Positions 38,788 to 49,362 of a stretch of 64,000 bases of DNA are shown here, piece after piece. The notes beneath the pieces are model-generated. The model saw only the letters and a list, made by a program, of their open reading frames with translations. It did not search any database and was not told the DNA's origin. Numbering within the stretch: position 1 is the stretch's first letter; each line of letters begins with the position of its first letter. This stretch comes from Acholeplasmatales bacterium (GTDB taxonomy: Bacteria; Bacillota_I; Bacilli_A; Acholeplasmatales; Anaeroplasmataceae). Location: assembly GCA_017542485.1 (NCBI GenBank), contig JAFXXC010000066.1, positions 1-64,000 on the forward strand. Direction: 5' to 3'. The position numbers and the translations under genes are program-made.

Positions 38788-38812
38788 TAAATCGTTAAGC
38801 AGGTGATTGAAT

Positions 38813-39859
38813 ATGTATACCTATGACGATTTGTCCAAATATGAATATTTTAAAGATGTTGATATTTCCCATGTATTAGATTCGCTTACTGGTGTAATTT
38901 CTAGACCTTATATTTTAGGATTTGCCAAGGATTTAATAAAAAGAAAAATCCCATTTTCTATGTGTATAATGGATATTGATAATTTTAAATTAATCAATGA
39001 TAATTATGGACATATGTCTGGAGATATTTGTTTAAAGAATTTAGGATATAGTTTTATAAAATATGTAGGAGATACTGGTTTAGTAGGTAGATTCGGTGGA
39101 GATGAATTTGTGTTATTGTGCTTTACTGCATATGATTACGATTCGTTACATGCATATATCACTGCTTTATATGAAAAAGGAAACATTGTAAGAAAAATGT
39201 ATAAGCTTGATAATGTTTATACATTCGTTACAGGAACTATTGGATCTGCATCATATCCTAAGGATGCTAAAACATACGATGAGTTATTTACTAAGGTTGA
39301 TAAGGCATTATATAGAGGAAAAACAAAGGGTAGAAATTGTTTTATTGTATATGTTGAAGAAAAGCATAAGGATATAGATGTACATAGAAGAGAAATTACT
39401 GCATTACCAGTTTTATTTGATAATATTTTAAGTATTGCAAATAATGGTGGTGGTGTTAATAAAAAGATAAAAGAGATTGTTGATTATATTAATGAAACAT
39501 TGATGTTGACTGTATCTTTTGTTTGTATAATTGATGATAATAAAATCATATCTAGTAATAGAAGAACTCCTTTCTATTATGATAAAGAGTATGTTGATTC
39601 TATCGGTGTAATAATGGGGAAGAATAATATTTTCTATTCTAGTGATTTACAAAAGATTAAGGATGAATATAAATTTGCTGAGGAGTATTTGGAGTCAAAG
39701 AATATTCAGTCTATTGCTGCTGTTAAGATATTATTAGATGGCGAAGTGTATGGCTACTTTGTTATGGCAGAAAATAAGATTGTTAGAATATGGCAGGAAC
39801 ATGATATAGCATTAGCTATGTATGTTGAAAGAATACTTGCTTTATTAATTAAGAAATAG
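38813..39859 (+). CDS. GGDEF-GAF protein, probable diguanylate cyclase
   Basis: A soluble protein of 348 residues. The GGDEF domain (about 20-180) has an intact FGGDEF and the metal and substrate residues of IMDIDNFKLINDNYGHMSGD, so c-di-GMP synthesis is expected. No RxxD inhibitory site is seen five residues before the motif. The C-terminal half (about 200-345) looks like a GAF sensor. The catalytic domain first and sensor last is the reverse of the common order. I chose ATG 38813 after AGGTGAT. Confidence 0.9.
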   Translation: MYTYDDLSKYEYFKDVDISHVLDSLTGVISRPYILGFAKDLIKRKIPFSMCIMDIDNFKLINDNYGHMSGDICLKNLGYSFIKYVGDTGLVGRFGGDEFVLLCFTAYDYDSLHAYITALYEKGNIVRKMYKLDNVYTFVTGTIGSASYPKDAKTYDELFTKVDKALYRGKTKGRNCFIVYVEEKHKDIDVHRREITALPVLFDNILSIANNGGGVNKKIKEIVDYINETLMLTVSFVCIIDDNKIISSNRRTPFYYDKEYVDSIGVIMGKNNIFYSSDLQKIKDEYKFAEEYLESKNIQSIAAVKILLDGEVYGYFVMAENKIVRIWQEHDIALAMYVERILALLIKK

Positions 39860-40597: not shown

Positions 40598-41638
40598 ATG
40601 TCAAACCATGATAATTTAGTTGTTGATAATAGTTTTATTAAAAAAACAAGTGTTTATTCGAATACATTTTTTTTGATGTGCCATCTTGGCTATTTATTGT
40701 TTTTCTTGTTGACAAAATCTTATATTTTAGTTTTTGTTAATTGTGGTAGTATTATGGTATATTCATTATTGTATATTATTATCAAGAAGAAAATGTATGA
40801 TTTATATGCAAGTATAGCAGGAACAGAGATAACGGCTTTTATGGTCACAGGAACGATATTAACAGGGTTCCAAACTGGATTTCATTTGTGTTTAATTGGT
40901 TTATGTATTTTAGCATTTTATTCTGGTTATTTTTCAATGAAGACTGATAAAAAGATTAAGCCTTTATATTGGGGTATTGCATTTTTAACTATTTATGTTG
41001 CTTTATATTTTATATGCTTATTTGTTGAACCATATTATGAATTAAGTTTGACAGTTAAATCAATATTTTATTTGATACATACTTTTATTGTATTTACTAT
41101 TGTTATTATATTCTTGTATGTATTTATTAAATATGTAAATAAACTTGAGAATAAAATAATGAATGAATCTAGAACTGATAAACTAACACAAATTCCTAAT
41201 AGAATGGCTTTGTTGGAATATATTGATTTATTAGGGGATGAAAAAGATCATTATATATTATCGATATTTGATATTGATGATTTTAAGGTAATTAATGATA
41301 GATATGGCCATATTTGTGGTGATTATATTCTTAAGGAAATGGCTAAATTAGTTACTTCAAGTAATGGTATTGATTTTGTGGCAAGATTTGGTGGAGAAGA
41401 GTTTATTATTATTGCTAGGTTAAATAAAGAATTTCCTGAAGTAGTAAATGATATTGATAATATTAGAAAAAGTATTGATGAGTATAATTTTGAATTTAAT
41501 AATATAAAAATCCATTCCACTGTTACTATTGGTGTTTCAAAATATGAATATGGTATAAGTGTTAATGATTGGATTGAGATGGCTGATAAGAAATTATATG
41601 ATGGTAAAAAGAGTGGAAAGAATAAGACAGTAGCGTGA
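40598..41638 (+). CDS. Membrane GGDEF protein, probable diguanylate cyclase
   Basis: About six hydrophobic helices (residues 20-185) form a membrane sensor region of 7TM-like type, followed by a GGDEF domain (about 195-345) with intact FGGEEF and FDIDDFKVINDRYGH. c-di-GMP synthesis is expected. The position of the RxxD inhibitory site reads NGID, so feedback inhibition is doubtful. The product has 346 residues. GAGGTGAT precedes the ATG. Confidence 0.92.
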   Translation: MSNHDNLVVDNSFIKKTSVYSNTFFLMCHLGYLLFFLLTKSYILVFVNCGSIMVYSLLYIIIKKKMYDLYASIAGTEITAFMVTGTILTGFQTGFHLCLIGLCILAFYSGYFSMKTDKKIKPLYWGIAFLTIYVALYFICLFVEPYYELSLTVKSIFYLIHTFIVFTIVIIFLYVFIKYVNKLENKIMNESRTDKLTQIPNRMALLEYIDLLGDEKDHYILSIFDIDDFKVINDRYGHICGDYILKEMAKLVTSSNGIDFVARFGGEEFIIIARLNKEFPEVVNDIDNIRKSIDEYNFEFNNIKIHSTVTIGVSKYEYGISVNDWIEMADKKLYDGKKSGKNKTVA

Positions 41639-41660: not shown

Positions 41661-41675
41661 TAAGGAGTGATTATA

Positions 41676-42662
41676 TTGTTATTAGATATTATTATTCCTC
41701 AATATAGTGAGGATGATTTGACAATTAAACCTTTATTAGATTCAATTAATAATCAAGTAAACGTAGATTTTTCTAATGTTAAAATTACGATTGTTAACGA
41801 TTGTTCTAATGTTTTATTGAGTGATGATTTTTTAAAGGGTTATGATAAATTAAATATTTCATATATTAGAAATGATTTTAATACTGGTCCTGGACTTGCA
41901 AGACAAAAGGGAATAGATAATACAAATTGTGATTTTATAATGTTTTGTGATAGTGATGATACATTATATGATGATAAAGTTTTAATGATTATAATGGATT
42001 TCATAAGTAAAAATGAGCCTGATTATTTAGTCACAAATATTATGATAGAAGGAGAAAATGGAAGAATAGTAAAAAAAGATAGAAGTACATTTCCTTGGAT
42101 GCATGGTAAGGTATATAAAAGAGAATTCTTAATCAGAAATGAAATTAGATTTCATCCTAAGGTAAGGCATTTGGAGGATTCTTATTTTACTATGTCTGTA
42201 TTAGGATGTATTGATCCTAAAAGCATTATATATTTGGATTATGTTACATATTTATGGAAAAATAATAGTCAAAGTTTAACTAGAAAAAGAAAAAAATTTA
42301 GTTATACAGTTGAGACATTTGATGATTTTTATAATTCTCCTATTTATACATATGAGTTTTTAGTTAAAAAGAATAGCTATTTAAAATTTAATTATTTAAT
42401 TAGTTCTATTTTAGCAATTTATATAGTGTTGTATTCTAATTTATTTGATTATAGTGAATTAGAAGAAAAGAAGGATTACTATATTAAAACACTTAAAGAG
42501 TATGTAAAAAGAAAGAAGAATATTTTTGTTATATATGGAAAAGAAAAAGTAGAAAAAATATATGAAATTGAATATAAGGAATTAGAAGAAAGAAATGGTG
42601 TTAATAAAGTTAGCCATGGATTAGATTACTTTTATGAAGAATTTTTAAATTTAAAATATTAA
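41676..42662 (+). CDS. GT2 family glycosyltransferase
   Basis: A GT-A enzyme of 328 residues. The start LLDIIIPQYSEDDL, the NDFNTGPGLARQKGID segment and the FCDSDDTL metal-binding motif (DxD-like) are characteristic of GT2. The acceptor is unknown. No membrane helix is clear, so it is likely a soluble or peripheral enzyme modifying surface glycans or lipids. I chose TTG 41676, eight bases after AAGGAG; GTG 41667 overlaps that site. Confidence 0.9.
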   Translation: MLLDIIIPQYSEDDLTIKPLLDSINNQVNVDFSNVKITIVNDCSNVLLSDDFLKGYDKLNISYIRNDFNTGPGLARQKGIDNTNCDFIMFCDSDDTLYDDKVLMIIMDFISKNEPDYLVTNIMIEGENGRIVKKDRSTFPWMHGKVYKREFLIRNEIRFHPKVRHLEDSYFTMSVLGCIDPKSIIYLDYVTYLWKNNSQSLTRKRKKFSYTVETFDDFYNSPIYTYEFLVKKNSYLKFNYLISSILAIYIVLYSNLFDYSELEEKKDYYIKTLKEYVKRKKNIFVIYGKEKVEKIYEIEYKELEERNGVNKVSHGLDYFYEEFLNLKY

Positions 42663-42734: not shown

Positions 42735-42763
42735 TTGAATATTGTAAAAAAATTTGATATAAT
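42735..42763 (+). promoter_or_regulatory. Promoter of the giant gene and mscS
   Basis: TTGAAT (42735-42740) and TATAAT (42758-42763), 17 bp apart, with TGA as an extended -10. Confidence 0.8.
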
Positions 42764-42802: not shown

Positions 42803-45800
42803 ATGGATGATGAGTTTAAAAGTTATGGTAGAGAAACTAATAAAGCTATACCTGAATTTAAACAGTTAGATGCAGTAGAATATTACGTTCCTGATGAGAA
42901 TTCAGATTCTTCAAACGAGGTTTATAATGTATCTGAAACTCAAGGAGATAACTATGGAACAAATGAAGGTTCTGATTCTAATACATTTGAAAATCAAAAT
43001 GATTTAAACAATGCAAATAGAAATAGCGCTGATGGTTCAAATTCTCCTGATATAAATATTAAGAACGAAAGTGGATTTGATACGGGTGGCGCTGAGGCTT
43101 TAGATAGTACTGGAGCTGCAGTAGCTGATGAAGCAGGAGCTGCAACAACAGTAGCTGGCGGTAGTTCGGCTGCGACAGCTTCACTAGCTGGTACTATTAC
43201 TGTGGGTGCGGCGGCAGTAGTTGGTATTGTGGCTGCGGCTGGTGGTGGAATTATGGCTCCAGCACCAAAGGTTGAATCCTATATTTTTGAGTCTGGAACT
43301 AATTATTTAAAATATGAGATTGATTTAGAGGAATTAACTGAAGGTGTTAGTTACAAAATTAGAGTATCTAATGCAACTTTTATAATGGAATATCCAGTAA
43401 CTGAGCCTGGAGTTCAAAGACAAATTGTAACAGGATTGATTCCATACAGAACTTATTCCGTTGATGTAATAAGTTCTAGTGAAGGTAGTATAATTGATAG
43501 TGTTTATTTTATTTCTGATGTTTGTACAAACCAATTACAACAGCCTAAGGCTGTAATGGAATTTACTCCATCATTTGATTATTTACTTGGTACATTTGAT
43601 GTTACATATGAAGCGTTTGTATCAGATTATTATAAAACTGGTTCTAATACATATATGCAAATATATGTTGGAGATGAATTGAAAGTCGATGACCATGAAT
43701 TAGGCAAAGATAGTTTCTTTAAGGGTGTACTTGAAGGATTAAGTGATTTATCTTATATTGAGGCAACAATATATACGACATATACTGATAAAGAAATAGT
43801 AATAGGAAAATATGGCTATAAGCCTGAATATCCTGAAGACTTTATAGCAACTGATGAAAATTATAATTCAGTATACAGTATTAAAGAACCATCAGTAACA
43901 TATTCTGATAAGGGATTTGAGTTATCTATAGATACTGGATTTGAATCAAAGGATTCAAGAGATTCATACATTATTGATATATATAAGAGCGAAGAGGCAT
44001 CAGGTACTAATTTAAATGCATTAGAACAAGAATTACTTGCTACATACGAAGGTAAGGATAGAATATTTAATGTTACTATACCAGGAGATACACCAGGTAT
44101 CGATGTATATTTTACTGGTGTTAAAACAACAGATAAAGCAAGAAAGACTTATGAATCAAAGAAGATTTATTCTTATTCTATGAGTAGTGCGAGAAAACAA
44201 GCACCAGAGCCTGTTGCGAAGGTAGTATTTGAAGATGACTTTGATACTTTAGATGATATCTATAATGAAAATTATGAAGTAAGTATAGAGGATATTTTCA
44301 AAACAGGTGGAAATTATAAGATTGTTGAACAAATAAATAATGAGATTATAAATGAGTTTGCTCTTGAATCTAATACATATAAGGGAACATTTAATTCTCT
44401 ATCAAATGGTGTAGATATTGCTGTAATTGTTTATTCTGATTACAACGATGATGAAGATCAAATTGTTATTGGTTCTGCAGAAAAGAATATTGAGCATGAT
44501 GAACCATTTAAGAATATTGAATTTAATTCATCAGATTATTCATATTATTTAGCAATGCAATACGCTAAGGAAGATGTTGAAAAAACATTTAATATTAATA
44601 TATTCCAAACAAATAAAGATGAATCAACATACGAAAACAGTTATGAATTTATTAACAATTTCGATATGGAAGGAATTATGTATTCTAGCGATGAGTCTAA
44701 AACGATTGCTGATGTTTTAAAACTTGATATTAAGGTTTCTTATAATGATAGAATTATTTATACATTAACTATTTATCCAAATGGAGAAACTGTTACATAT
44801 GGCGAATTTGATGTGGATAGTGATGGTAATGTCATTATGCCATATGAAATAACTTTACCTACAGGTGCTAATTTTATAGGTGGTTATCTATCATTTGATG
44901 GTGCAGAAGATACATATGAAATAACTGAGTTAAAGGGTAATATTACTATTACTTCATTAAGCAGTAATATAATTAAGCCTAGTATGTCATTGGAATATGA
45001 AATTGATAATGTAAGAATAACAAAACCAAGTTATTCAGATGATATCAATATAGGTGCGGAATATGAAGTATCATATTATGCATCACATTATAATAGTTAC
45101 TATTACTCAGCTAATGTTAAGTTTGATGCTAAGCTTAATGGTAAGTCTATTAATATGGATTTAAAGCCTGAGGTATTAGATGGAGATGAATTCGTTCCAA
45201 TTGAGGATAAATCACAAGATGGAATGGATAAATATAATGATTATTATGTAGTTAACACAGTAGGAATGCAAGATTCTGAAAGTGGTGAATATATAAGAAA
45301 ACTTGTATATAAAATTACAACTAAAGGCTTTGATGATACTGATTTAGAACAAAGTGTAGTAATTGATGATGGTTTTATGCAAGGAAATTTCAGTGCTGGA
45401 TATGAAGTTAGAGAAAATAATAGATATTATTATTATGTAGATTATGTTAAGACAGTAAATGATGATGGTACAGTAAATTATTATTTCGATAATAAATTAG
45501 AATCAGAATCTAGTAATTGTTACGGAAGAATTGAATATAGTTATACAGTTGATAATGTAACTAAGTATTTCTATTCTGAATATACAAATAATAAAACTAT
45601 TGCGTTGACATATTTAGAGGATAGAGATTATGAATTTAAATATGCAGTATATTTCTTAAATGATGGTATTTATTATGATGCTTATCCGCAGAATGGAACT
45701 TATGCATATACTTGTAAAGAAATTAAGAATTCAGATAGTATAAATATTTTAAATGCGACTGTAATGGAATCAGATGTTGATAGAGAATATGTTAAAGTAT

Positions 45801-48277
45801 TTGATTTTACATTAGATGAAAATACATTTGATATAACTAAAACTATTACTGTTACATCTGGTGATATAACTTATGATATTTTAATTAAAGATAAAGAATC
45901 ACTTGATCAAGATAGTTTAATAAGTGAATATAATAATTCATATCGATATGTTGAACGTTTGGGTCAAAATGATGAATGTATAATTGATGTCGATAGAGAT
46001 AATAAATATGTAATCACTATAGAAATTATAATTCATCCAAATGAATCAGATTCTTTAAATACAATGGATATATCATTTACAGGATATCCAAGTAAATTTA
46101 TTGAATCTTATTTAGCTGATAACAATAATGTAAATGACATATTAAATTATTCATCATTGACAAGCGTTGCAAGTACAACAATATGTGAATATACTGGTTC
46201 ATTTAATATGGATGGTTTATCATATGAAACTAATGTGGCTGATGGATATAGCAAAAATAGTATTGTCATAACTGTTCCTGATTTTAAAGCTACAGATTCA
46301 CGTGATAGCTTGATGGCATGTGCATATTATAATGATGAAGTTGTTGCGTATGGTAGGTACTATAATGGTTCAATAACAGTAGATGTTGATCCAGCATATA
46401 CAAGTTTAGATATTGTTATTTTTGAGATTAAGCAAGAACAAATTAATATTATGGCTCAAAATATTCCAACTCAAGAGGGCTTTGAGGTAAGATATAAGAG
46501 TTATAATTACGAAACAGTAACATTTGATAATGTTGATATAATAAGTGATATTGATATTCAAGAGGATGAAAGCTTATATGTAAGAGTTACTCCTAAGGAT
46601 GAAAATACATTTGCTGATTATTATGTTAGGGTTACAAGTGGAGATGAAATATTTGGTAGTAGTGATAACTTAGGTGTAGATGAGGTAATAGTTGACAAAG
46701 ATAGTTTAGGTTCTAAGCTTATTGTAGAGATTGTTAAGTATTATCAATATGGTGATGATATTGTATATAATAGATATGAAATACCATTTGATGCAACTAT
46801 AGGCGAATATACTTATGATGCTACAAATGATACATTAACAGTTCCATATGAATTTAATTTACCAGAAGGTGCAGTATTAGATACACAAACATCTACTGTA
46901 CAATATGGAAGTTCAGATCCTCAAGCTTTAGCAACAAGTGGTGATATTAATATTATTTATTTAGATTCGAATGTTAATGAAGTTATATTTAATGTTGATT
47001 ATGAAATAAATGGTATTAATGTAAGTTATAGATTTGTTAAGAATCATGAATTACATGGTGAAGTTGATTTGAATTATGAGATTTATTCAGTTCAAGCTAG
47101 TTCAGAATATGGCAATTTCTCACTTGAATATAATAGTGCTAAATATGATGAAGATACACAAATTATTTATATTGAAAATAGTGCAGATGGTAAATTTTAT
47201 GATGAAGATGGTAATGAACCACCAAACACAGAAACTGTTTATCTAACAGATTATGGTAATACAATCTATTATATAAAAGGTACTGTTACTGAGACGATAG
47301 GAAAATTTGTTATAACAAATCCTACATATCATGTTAATGTTAAAAAAGCAGGTGGAACTATTCTAGATCAATCTACTGGAGAATTATATAATGGTTCAGG
47401 TGCTATGACAAAAGATCCTAATGAATTGTTAGATCCATTTGTTATTGATGTAGATGGTGATAATACTACGGGCATTTATTTAACATTCTTCCATACAACT
47501 ATAGGAACTGAATATTATAATAATAAAGTTAATGGTATTAATACTTGTGAGCTTGAATTTGATATTATGGGTAATGGAAAGGTATTGTTAACAAAGAGTA
47601 TAGAATTTACGGAGCCTAGAAAGAATTCTATTCCTACTAATAGCTCATTTAGTTTTAGTAGAGAGAATACAAACAGTACAGTAACAAAGAATCAAGATGA
47701 TACTATTAATATGACAATTAATACAGGATTTGATTCAGAGTTGTATCCGGGTTATGTATACAAGATATTGCTATATGAGAAAAATTATTATACGAATGAT
47801 TTGACTCTTGTAAAAGAATTAGATGATTATTATTCTTCAGATGAAGTAATAATTAATAACATTGAGAATAAGAGTTATGAAGTATGGCTTGACGTATATT
47901 ACGAAAGCGATGGTTCATATTTGAAATATGATGCTATCCCATTAGGAAGAGCTAACAGTGCGTTAGCTAATAAAGATTGGAATTTCGATTATGATACTAC
48001 AACATATACAAATATCGTATATATTGATAAGAGTTATATAAATAGCGAGTATTTAGATGGCTCTAAGATGCTAGCATTTAAGAATGGTTCTATAGATTTA
48101 ACTAATACATCTGATAGTCAATATGTATCACAGTGTGATGTAACAGTTACTGATCAAGGTGATGGAACGTTGATGATTAGAATATCAGCTAATAATTCAG
48201 ATTACGTACGTGGTAGTTTAGTAGTAGAACAAGGTAATGATGAAATTGGTTATGTTGAAATAACATATTCAATTTAA
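42803..48277 (+). CDS. Giant single-pass membrane protein with repeated extracytoplasmic modules
   Basis: The 1,824-residue product has no signal peptide and no LPxTG end. Residues 1-125 are polar (Asn, Ser, Asp, Glu). An Ala/Gly-rich hydrophobic stretch at about 128-155 is the only membrane segment, so about 1,665 residues probably lie outside. These are beta-rich, acidic and Tyr/Asn/Asp-rich, and contain visible duplications: a DYYKTGSN-type module at about 249-340 and 473-565, a YEITLPTGA/YEFNLPEGA module near 680 and 1345, and a TGFESKDSRDS-type module near 375, 1155 and 1640. I know no family. An adhesin or wall-spanning role is inference. An RBS (GAAAGGGGATG) and a strong promoter support the start, and mscS follows at once. 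Confidence 0.93.
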   Translation: MDDEFKSYGRETNKAIPEFKQLDAVEYYVPDENSDSSNEVYNVSETQGDNYGTNEGSDSNTFENQNDLNNANRNSADGSNSPDINIKNESGFDTGGAEALDSTGAAVADEAGAATTVAGGSSAATASLAGTITVGAAAVVGIVAAAGGGIMAPAPKVESYIFESGTNYLKYEIDLEELTEGVSYKIRVSNATFIMEYPVTEPGVQRQIVTGLIPYRTYSVDVISSSEGSIIDSVYFISDVCTNQLQQPKAVMEFTPSFDYLLGTFDVTYEAFVSDYYKTGSNTYMQIYVGDELKVDDHELGKDSFFKGVLEGLSDLSYIEATIYTTYTDKEIVIGKYGYKPEYPEDFIATDENYNSVYSIKEPSVTYSDKGFELSIDTGFESKDSRDSYIIDIYKSEEASGTNLNALEQELLATYEGKDRIFNVTIPGDTPGIDVYFTGVKTTDKARKTYESKKIYSYSMSSARKQAPEPVAKVVFEDDFDTLDDIYNENYEVSIEDIFKTGGNYKIVEQINNEIINEFALESNTYKGTFNSLSNGVDIAVIVYSDYNDDEDQIVIGSAEKNIEHDEPFKNIEFNSSDYSYYLAMQYAKEDVEKTFNINIFQTNKDESTYENSYEFINNFDMEGIMYSSDESKTIADVLKLDIKVSYNDRIIYTLTIYPNGETVTYGEFDVDSDGNVIMPYEITLPTGANFIGGYLSFDGAEDTYEITELKGNITITSLSSNIIKPSMSLEYEIDNVRITKPSYSDDINIGAEYEVSYYASHYNSYYYSANVKFDAKLNGKSINMDLKPEVLDGDEFVPIEDKSQDGMDKYNDYYVVNTVGMQDSESGEYIRKLVYKITTKGFDDTDLEQSVVIDDGFMQGNFSAGYEVRENNRYYYYVDYVKTVNDDGTVNYYFDNKLESESSNCYGRIEYSYTVDNVTKYFYSEYTNNKTIALTYLEDRDYEFKYAVYFLNDGIYYDAYPQNGTYAYTCKEIKNSDSINILNATVMESDVDREYVKVFDFTLDENTFDITKTITVTSGDITYDILIKDKESLDQDSLISEYNNSYRYVERLGQNDECIIDVDRDNKYVITIEIIIHPNESDSLNTMDISFTGYPSKFIESYLADNNNVNDILNYSSLTSVASTTICEYTGSFNMDGLSYETNVADGYSKNSIVITVPDFKATDSRDSLMACAYYNDEVVAYGRYYNGSITVDVDPAYTSLDIVIFEIKQEQINIMAQNIPTQEGFEVRYKSYNYETVTFDNVDIISDIDIQEDESLYVRVTPKDENTFADYYVRVTSGDEIFGSSDNLGVDEVIVDKDSLGSKLIVEIVKYYQYGDDIVYNRYEIPFDATIGEYTYDATNDTLTVPYEFNLPEGAVLDTQTSTVQYGSSDPQALATSGDINIIYLDSNVNEVIFNVDYEINGINVSYRFVKNHELHGEVDLNYEIYSVQASSEYGNFSLEYNSAKYDEDTQIIYIENSADGKFYDEDGNEPPNTETVYLTDYGNTIYYIKGTVTETIGKFVITNPTYHVNVKKAGGTILDQSTGELYNGSGAMTKDPNELLDPFVIDVDGDNTTGIYLTFFHTTIGTEYYNNKVNGINTCELEFDIMGNGKVLLTKSIEFTEPRKNSIPTNSSFSFSRENTNSTVTKNQDDTINMTINTGFDSELYPGYVYKILLYEKNYYTNDLTLVKELDDYYSSDEVIINNIENKSYEVWLDVYYESDGSYLKYDAIPLGRANSALANKDWNFDYDTTTYTNIVYIDKSYINSEYLDGSKMLAFKNGSIDLTNTSDSQYVSQCDVTVTDQGDGTLMIRISANNSDYVRGSLVVEQGNDEIGYVEITYSI

Positions 48278-48291
48278 TGGAGGATAAAAAG

Positions 48292-49335
48292 ATGAAAGAA
48301 AATAAAAAGAAAAAAGGTTTTACAATATTAGAACTTATAATAATTGGTATAGTATTAATATCATTTATTGTGTTCTTAATAATTGAAATGGCAGCCCCAG
48401 AATCAAGTGTTGGTGATTGGGTAAAGAATAATGTGTGGGATACTGAAAAAGCAGGTAAGGACTTTATGAGCCATTTGCCTACATTAATTCAAAGTTTAAT
48501 TTATGTAGTAGTTATCTATGCAGTATGTAAATTAATTAGAATGTTATTCCATAGAAAAATGGCAAAATCAAATAGAACAAAGACTATAGTGACATTATTT
48601 GATGGATTAGTAAAATATGCATGTGCTATCGCAATAATCATTTTTATCCTTCAGGCATTAGGTGTTAACGCTACTGCAATTTTCGCATCTGTTGGTATTT
48701 TAACATTAGTTATAGGTTTAGGATGTCAAAGCTTAATTGCCGATGTTGTTGCTGGAATGTTTATTGTATTTGAGGATGAATATAATGTAGGTGAAATCAT
48801 TACAATTGGTGATTTTAGAGGTACTGTTACTGAAATTGGTATTCGTTCAACTAAGATACTTGATTTAGCAGGTAATATTAAAATTGTTAATAATTCAGAT
48901 ATTTCAAATGTAATTAATATGTCAAGAGAATTATCTTTAGCAGTAGTAGATTGTGAATTCCCATATGATGTTCCTATCGAAGTTATTGAAGGATTATTAA
49001 AAGATAATTTTGATAAGTTTAGAGAAAAGATTCCTGCAATTGTTGAAGGACCTTTCTATAAAGGAGTTTCTGGATATGGAGATTCTAATGTTGCAGTTAA
49101 AATTGTTGCTAAATGTTTAGAAGAGGATAGATATCAAGTTCAAAGAGATTTATTAAGAGAATATCGTATGGTATTTACTGAAGCTGGTATTGATTTATCA
49201 TTCAATCAAGTTGTTGTTTCTCAATATAAACCTACTGAGTATAAGACTAGTAAAAAGATGAAAAAAGAAGCACAAGATTTTGTTGATGAGCAAAAAGAAT
49301 TGTCTAAAAACGTTGACGGACAAGAAAATAATTAA
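48292..49335 (+). CDS. MscS-family mechanosensitive channel with a prepilin-like N-terminus
   Basis: A 347-residue channel that opens under membrane tension. Helices lie at about residues 10-35, 55-75 and 90-113. The pore helix and beta domain follow: SVGILTLVIGLGCQSLIADV, then FEDEYNVGEIITIGDFRGTV and NSDISNVINMSR. The N-terminus, KKKKGFTILELIIIG, matches the type IV prepilin signal (G, F, T and Glu at +5), which is unusual for MscS. I chose ATG 48292, eight bases after GGAGG; ATG 48277 overlaps the previous stop and contains that site. It is co-transcribed with the giant gene. Confidence 0.93.
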   Translation: MKENKKKKGFTILELIIIGIVLISFIVFLIIEMAAPESSVGDWVKNNVWDTEKAGKDFMSHLPTLIQSLIYVVVIYAVCKLIRMLFHRKMAKSNRTKTIVTLFDGLVKYACAIAIIIFILQALGVNATAIFASVGILTLVIGLGCQSLIADVVAGMFIVFEDEYNVGEIITIGDFRGTVTEIGIRSTKILDLAGNIKIVNNSDISNVINMSRELSLAVVDCEFPYDVPIEVIEGLLKDNFDKFREKIPAIVEGPFYKGVSGYGDSNVAVKIVAKCLEEDRYQVQRDLLREYRMVFTEAGIDLSFNQVVVSQYKPTEYKTSKKMKKEAQDFVDEQKELSKNVDGQENN

Positions 49336-49339
49336 TTGT

Positions 49340-49362
49340 AAGACGCAGAAATGCGTCTTTTC
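49340..49362 (+). terminator. Terminator of the giant-mscS operon
   Basis: AAGACGCA pairs with TGCGTCTT around a GAAA tetraloop and is followed by TTTTC. Confidence 0.88.

Follow-up and report, generated by a model that had tools for sequence, protein, structure and literature searches.

The mechanosensitive channel MscS is the textbook case of a bacterial channel gated by lipids alone, without an accessory protein. We know of no accessory subunit for any bacterial MscS, nor of one in the solved bacterial MscS structures. The closest described arrangements are those of E. coli MscK, MscM, and YbiO, which consist of an MscS core plus extra extracytoplasmic protein mass that is largely helical and lies inside the same polypeptide. 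Among eukaryotic channels, there are one-transmembrane (TM) auxiliary subunits with an Ig ectodomain, for example, Nav beta, which has one TM and an Ig domain. Hair-cell tip-link complexes provide a further analogy, that of force transmission (PMC10801851), and a review of force-from-filament gating never mentions MscS (PMC9108448).

Here, we analyzed a 64,000-nucleotide stretch of DNA (the window) from an Acholeplasmatales bacterium, in which an MscS-family channel is encoded next to a giant single-pass protein. The window genome is a 1.7-Mb metagenome-assembled genome (MAG), 75% complete, and its named relatives are rumen MAGs labeled "Acholeplasmatales" or "Bacillales." As in MscK, MscM, and YbiO, an MscS core is accompanied by extra extracytoplasmic mass, but here this mass is a separate single-pass FN3/Ig chain. 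The topology, a single TM and a beta-sandwich ectodomain beside a channel, is that of the eukaryotic one-TM Ig subunits; the likeness to these subunits and to tip links is drawn from topology and analogy, and the pair is known here from its genes. A limited search of the open-access literature (MscS accessory subunit, tether, surface-protein operon, and Acholeplasma channels) yielded no account of the pair. To all appearance, the partner is an accessory subunit or a tether, not described before, of a force-sensing channel in bacteria.

Results

The two genes form an operon

The giant partner gene (42,803–48,277, forward strand) encodes a single-pass membrane protein of 1,824 aa with a long beta-domain ectodomain, and the MscS gene (48,292–49,335, forward strand) encodes a channel of 347 aa. 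The MscS open reading frame already opens at 48,277, where an ATG overlaps the TAA of the giant gene and would yield 352 aa. The start at 48,292 is likelier because a GGAGG ribosome-binding site (48,279–48,283, forward strand) lies 8 nt before it and because the profile of the MscS clade described below aligns from this position. With this start, the gap is exactly the 14 bp given in the original prediction. The shared terminator that it proposed was also found: a single intrinsic terminator-like stem-loop (49,340–49,359, forward strand) follows MscS at the operon end, and no such stem was seen between the two genes. A promoter-like site ahead of the giant gene (TTGAAT-17-TATAAT with a TG before the -10 element; 42,735–42,763, forward strand) is a consensus match and constitutes weak evidence, since four such sites were found versus 2.5 expected. 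The giant gene and MscS are a real two-gene operon.

A GT2 glycosyltransferase gene (41,667–42,662) lies directly 5' of the giant gene in the window and in most genus-level loci (48%–70% identity), and it is also found upstream where another gene intervenes (L065, L083, and L135). Its product might glycosylate the partner ectodomain. Two GGDEF-type genes (38,807–39,859 and 40,598–41,638) are located near the operon, and homologs of both also flank several related MscS loci.

The channel has a conserved MscS core

The channel matches PF00924 above the cut-off (6.7e-16) and PF21088 slightly under its cut-off. It has the MS_channel beta domain with the pore helix and the C-terminal cage of the MscS family. 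The nearest solved structure to the profile of its clade is 3udc (E = 3.6e-62), and the pore, beta, and cytoplasmic cage regions of the family (E. coli MscS and 3udc) align with this profile. The window MscS may open under membrane tension. Compared with 3udc, the clade has an extra N-terminal helix and an extracellular loop (profile positions 1–55, outside the match), and compared with the MscS family as a whole, the window channel falls in a separate clade, which comes with the partner gene. The cytoplasmic C-tail (49,219–49,332, forward strand) carries an FVxEQKExS motif that is absent from unlinked paralogs outside the clade.

In the large MscK/MscM-type channels, the extracytoplasmic part is fused to the channel, whereas the window has separate open reading frames. 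The only fused MscS proteins that we found are in other genomes and resemble the same clade (L257:4,902–8,606, 1,234 aa; L258:712–4,269, 1,185 aa). In both, MscS sits behind two large extracytoplasmic modules that appear Cache-like by eye and have no Pfam match. We rejected these fusions as proof of contact between partner and MscS, the modules being not recognizably FN3 and matching no Pfam family.

The partner is a membrane-anchored chain of beta sandwiches

By hydropathy, the giant protein has a single hydrophobic segment (aa 128–146) after a hydrophilic tail of 127 aa. The cytoplasmic N-tail (aa 1–127; 42,803–43,183, forward strand) is predicted to be disordered (pLDDT < 50) and has conserved E-[FY] motifs at E4, E18, and E32 (alignments A2/A5). 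The TM helix (43,184–43,240, forward strand) is rich in Gly, Ala, and Ser, as are partner TMs in general compared with other single TMs (34% versus 27%, p = 3e-5), a richness in small residues that would fit packed helices. It is followed by a membrane-proximal FN3-like domain, the conserved core of the ectodomain (aa 152–244; 43,256–43,534, forward strand), identified from an AlphaFold2 (AF2) model, VIA-align, and hhalign. Superposed on an FN3 domain of IFNAR2, this region gives a VIA-align Z score of 10.2 over 88 residues (rmsd 2.7 Å), and so the AF2 model and VIA-align together place it in the FN3 fold.

The rest of the ectodomain (43,535–48,274, forward strand) consists of tandem beta-sandwich domains, approximately 16 by length (AF2 and Foldseek). 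In the AF2 model of aa 1–760, the disordered tail is followed by six consecutive beta sandwiches of ~100 aa (pLDDT ~88 beyond aa 150); aa 1,065–1,824 were modeled as all beta at lower confidence (mean pLDDT 75), and further domains match FN3/Ig chains in Foldseek. An ectodomain of 1,674 aa would amount to ~17 domains and, at the length typical of FN3 domains, would span roughly 60 nm when stretched out. The window protein matches no Pfam or NCBIfam family, while 14 of 19 small partners match Pfam fn3 weakly (best 8.4e-5).

Bacterial FN3/Ig-like adhesins also display tandem beta sandwiches on the cell surface. The window partner differs from them in having an uncleaved N-in anchor, a fixed MscS neighbor, and no sorting signal: it ends in ...IGYVEITYSI, with neither LPXTG nor another wall-sorting C terminus. 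The anchoring named in the original prediction therefore holds for the membrane, through the one TM, and not for the wall.

The gene pair is restricted to one MscS clade

The order was sampled with 160 genomes and the class with 395, yielding 170 distinct MscS homologs with context; all loci were studied within individual stretches of sequence. On the MscS tree, 139 sequences form clade A (support 0.949), which spans many families within a single GTDB class and consists for the most part of Acholeplasmatales-like bacteria. At E = 1e-85 or better, a phylum-wide sample contained the clade in no other class. Fourteen of the 139 loci are cut by contig ends and were not scored. An adjacent single-pass partner is present in 117 of the remaining 125, upstream in 111 and downstream in 6 (109 immediately upstream, 6 immediately downstream, and 2, L261 and L262, by inspection). 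By comparison, none of 31 MscS homologs outside clade A has such a neighbor. Among 1,013 other genes in the same stretches, the upstream neighbor meets the partner definition in 34 (3.4%) and, at a length of at least 900 aa, in 2. The adjacency greatly exceeds what chance would give, and its occurrence in flipped order points to selection acting on the pair itself and not on read-through. Co-inheritance with a specific channel clade is one of the features of a channel auxiliary subunit, and the partner shows it; as such a subunit, it would also form a stable complex with the pore subunit.

The original prediction held that the two proteins are functionally coupled and named, as the observation that would speak against this, orthologs of the channel without a neighboring large protein. 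Just eight scorable clade A loci lack an adjacent partner, one of them (L171) with a partner in a broken frame; the pair is class-wide, flipped in some lineages, and restricted to one MscS clade, which supports the coupling. Close MscS orthologs (57%–88% identity; the genus and a second family) have a large single-TM protein upstream in all cases with enough sequence. The sole exception, L113, is a duplicated copy; the other copy in that genome has a 3,007-aa partner. At L135 (G122:C22, 4,094–19,321), two MscS copies share a contig, a partnerless one behind a GT2 gene and a 6-TM protein, and another with a 3,007-aa partner.

Clear partner matches in the order (E = 1e-11 or better) lie beside a clade MscS or at a contig end. 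At L285 (G112:C124, 4,474–6,513), an open partner gene adjoins a broken MscS gene. Candidate partners in genomes without a clade MscS (G032, G041, and G057) were rejected, as these weak matches are FN3-like lipoproteins. Lipoproteins of Acholeplasma relatives (L286, L287, and L288) resemble the first FN3-like domains of the partner and have a conserved place beside a glutamyl-tRNA-synthetase-like gene. In genomes with a partnerless MscS (G134, G135, and G048), a search with profile A4, run without a positive control, found no partner elsewhere.

Gene adjacency can reflect co-expression alone, and FN3 domains are generic. An adhesin and an osmotic valve might thus be made together simply as both are needed simultaneously, with no contact between them, and this is compatible with an operon by itself. 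It accounts poorly for an adjacency that recurs across a class and many families, in both gene orders, with one MscS clade, against the low background given above, and we consider it unlikely.

Partners vary in size around a conserved membrane-proximal core

Partner length ranges from <200 to 3,007 aa (median 473), with at least 900 aa in 40 of 114; the shortest, at 136 aa, may be a fragment. The number of outer fibronectin-like domains ranges from one to about thirty, and small partners (<200 to ~450 aa) are common beside clade orthologs. At 1,824 aa, the window giant lies toward one end of this range and is an extreme form of a common partner; size is not what the partners share. What stays constant is one TM together with an FN3-like domain next to the membrane. 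These ~100 membrane-proximal aa are homologous across giant, intermediate, and small partners (E = 1e-7 to 1e-17 between the main groups, hhalign probability 93–99; G1-G2 2.5e-17, G1-S3 2.2e-8, and G1-OT 9.3e-9). Some minor groups match weakly (G1-DN, probability 24%), and FN3 domains being common, the likeness of distant partners may be at the level of the fold only.

In most of the genus, channel identity is 74%–88% and partner identity is 21%–47% over the first 760 residues: the partner drifts in sequence yet stays beside a conserved channel. The distal part evolves fast, as in surface-binding proteins, and ectodomains of about 1,000–3,000 aa occur throughout genus g1 and related families. 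These features, in a single-TM protein with a long tandem FN3/Ig-like chain encoded beside a channel gene, would suit a bacterial counterpart of the tip link, in which the giant ectodomain, bound to some surface, a neighboring cell, or a glycocalyx, pulls the channel open by force from filament. Many partners, however, have short ectodomains unable to reach anything distant, the giant ectodomain has no recognized ligand-binding tip, and most carriers have no wall to anchor to. Such a tether is a doubtful explanation for the pair in general; with partners often short and a ligand missing, we place tethering of the giant forms to the outside at below even odds.

Cytoplasmic tails covary through few events

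A long partner N-tail pairs with an MscS C-tail, and a short one with a short one (55/7/2/46, Fisher p = 6e-21), and the C-tails paired with long N-tails mostly carry FVxEQKExS. This pattern would be expected if the disordered N-tail docked on the C-tail or cage of MscS and tuned its opening or inactivation, the ectodomain being secondary. On the tree, however, the covariation reduces to a single joint loss plus three losses of the C-tail alone, in lineages that kept the N-tail, and independent contrasts give r = 0.18 (p = 0.11). Two partnerless MscS loci (L138 and L139) also retain the C-tail. Having been lost under phylogenetic correction, the covariation is now no more than a hint of tail-tail docking, and control from the cytoplasmic side appears improbable.

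Most carriers lack wall transpeptidases

The original prediction allowed for a wall-linked sensor. No PF00905 transpeptidase was found in the window genome (75% complete) or in pair-bearing relatives that are 98%–100% complete, and in the class sample the family is absent from 73 of 78 genomes with a clade A channel (called at a best E of 1e-92 or better). Ignoring phylogeny, it is present in 5/78 genomes with the channel versus 169/317 without (Fisher p = 9e-16). Some walled genomes carry a clade A channel or the pair (G007, G021, G268, G415, G426, G230, and G367), and G007 and G021 have transpeptidases and the pair together. Genus g1 is mixed: G005, G007, G014, G016, G020, and G021 have penicillin-binding transpeptidases and near-complete others do not, which suggests that the wall was lost within one GTDB genus. 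By gene content, the system is typical of wall-less cells, though not confined to them. Because transpeptidases are absent from most carriers, the wall cannot be the usual anchor point of the partner, and with the LPXTG signal also missing from the window protein, the wall-linked part of the prediction falls away for this lineage.

Discussion

We favor the view, with a probability of roughly 0.6, that the partner is a dedicated accessory subunit of the clade A MscS, with the outer domains acting as a lever, cover, or tether. The partner would be a single-pass protein whose N terminus faces the cytoplasm. The helix and the first FN3-like domain would lie alongside the channel in the membrane, with further FN3/Ig-like domains (~17 in the window protein) projecting outward. 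The two proteins would bind each other, and the partner would alter gating, either by shifting the tension set-point or by passing on a pull from whatever surface, cell, or glycocalyx it is attached to; the contact between the two, its stoichiometry, and its effect on gating are inferred here from the genes. Because the smallest partners, with about one FN3 domain, have little reach, the ancestral role was probably to modulate the channel locally; in the giant versions, adhesion or true tethering may have been added.

A force-sensor function, as originally suggested, is possible. Its boldest form would be a tip link of bacteria that mostly have no wall, with MscS gated via an outside-attached FN3/Ig chain and sensing touch, adhesion, or shear in addition to osmotic swelling; this seems to us rather unlikely.

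The pair also exists in a small form (a channel of ~320 aa with a partner of 185–450 aa) that is practical for reconstitution. If the accessory-subunit reading is true, MscS channels would have their first dedicated accessory subunit, class-wide, clade-specific, and built on a conserved TM and FN3 core, and this in cells most of which are without the wall that normally bears the osmotic load. Gating of a bacterial channel by an extracellular filament would then become a directly testable question.
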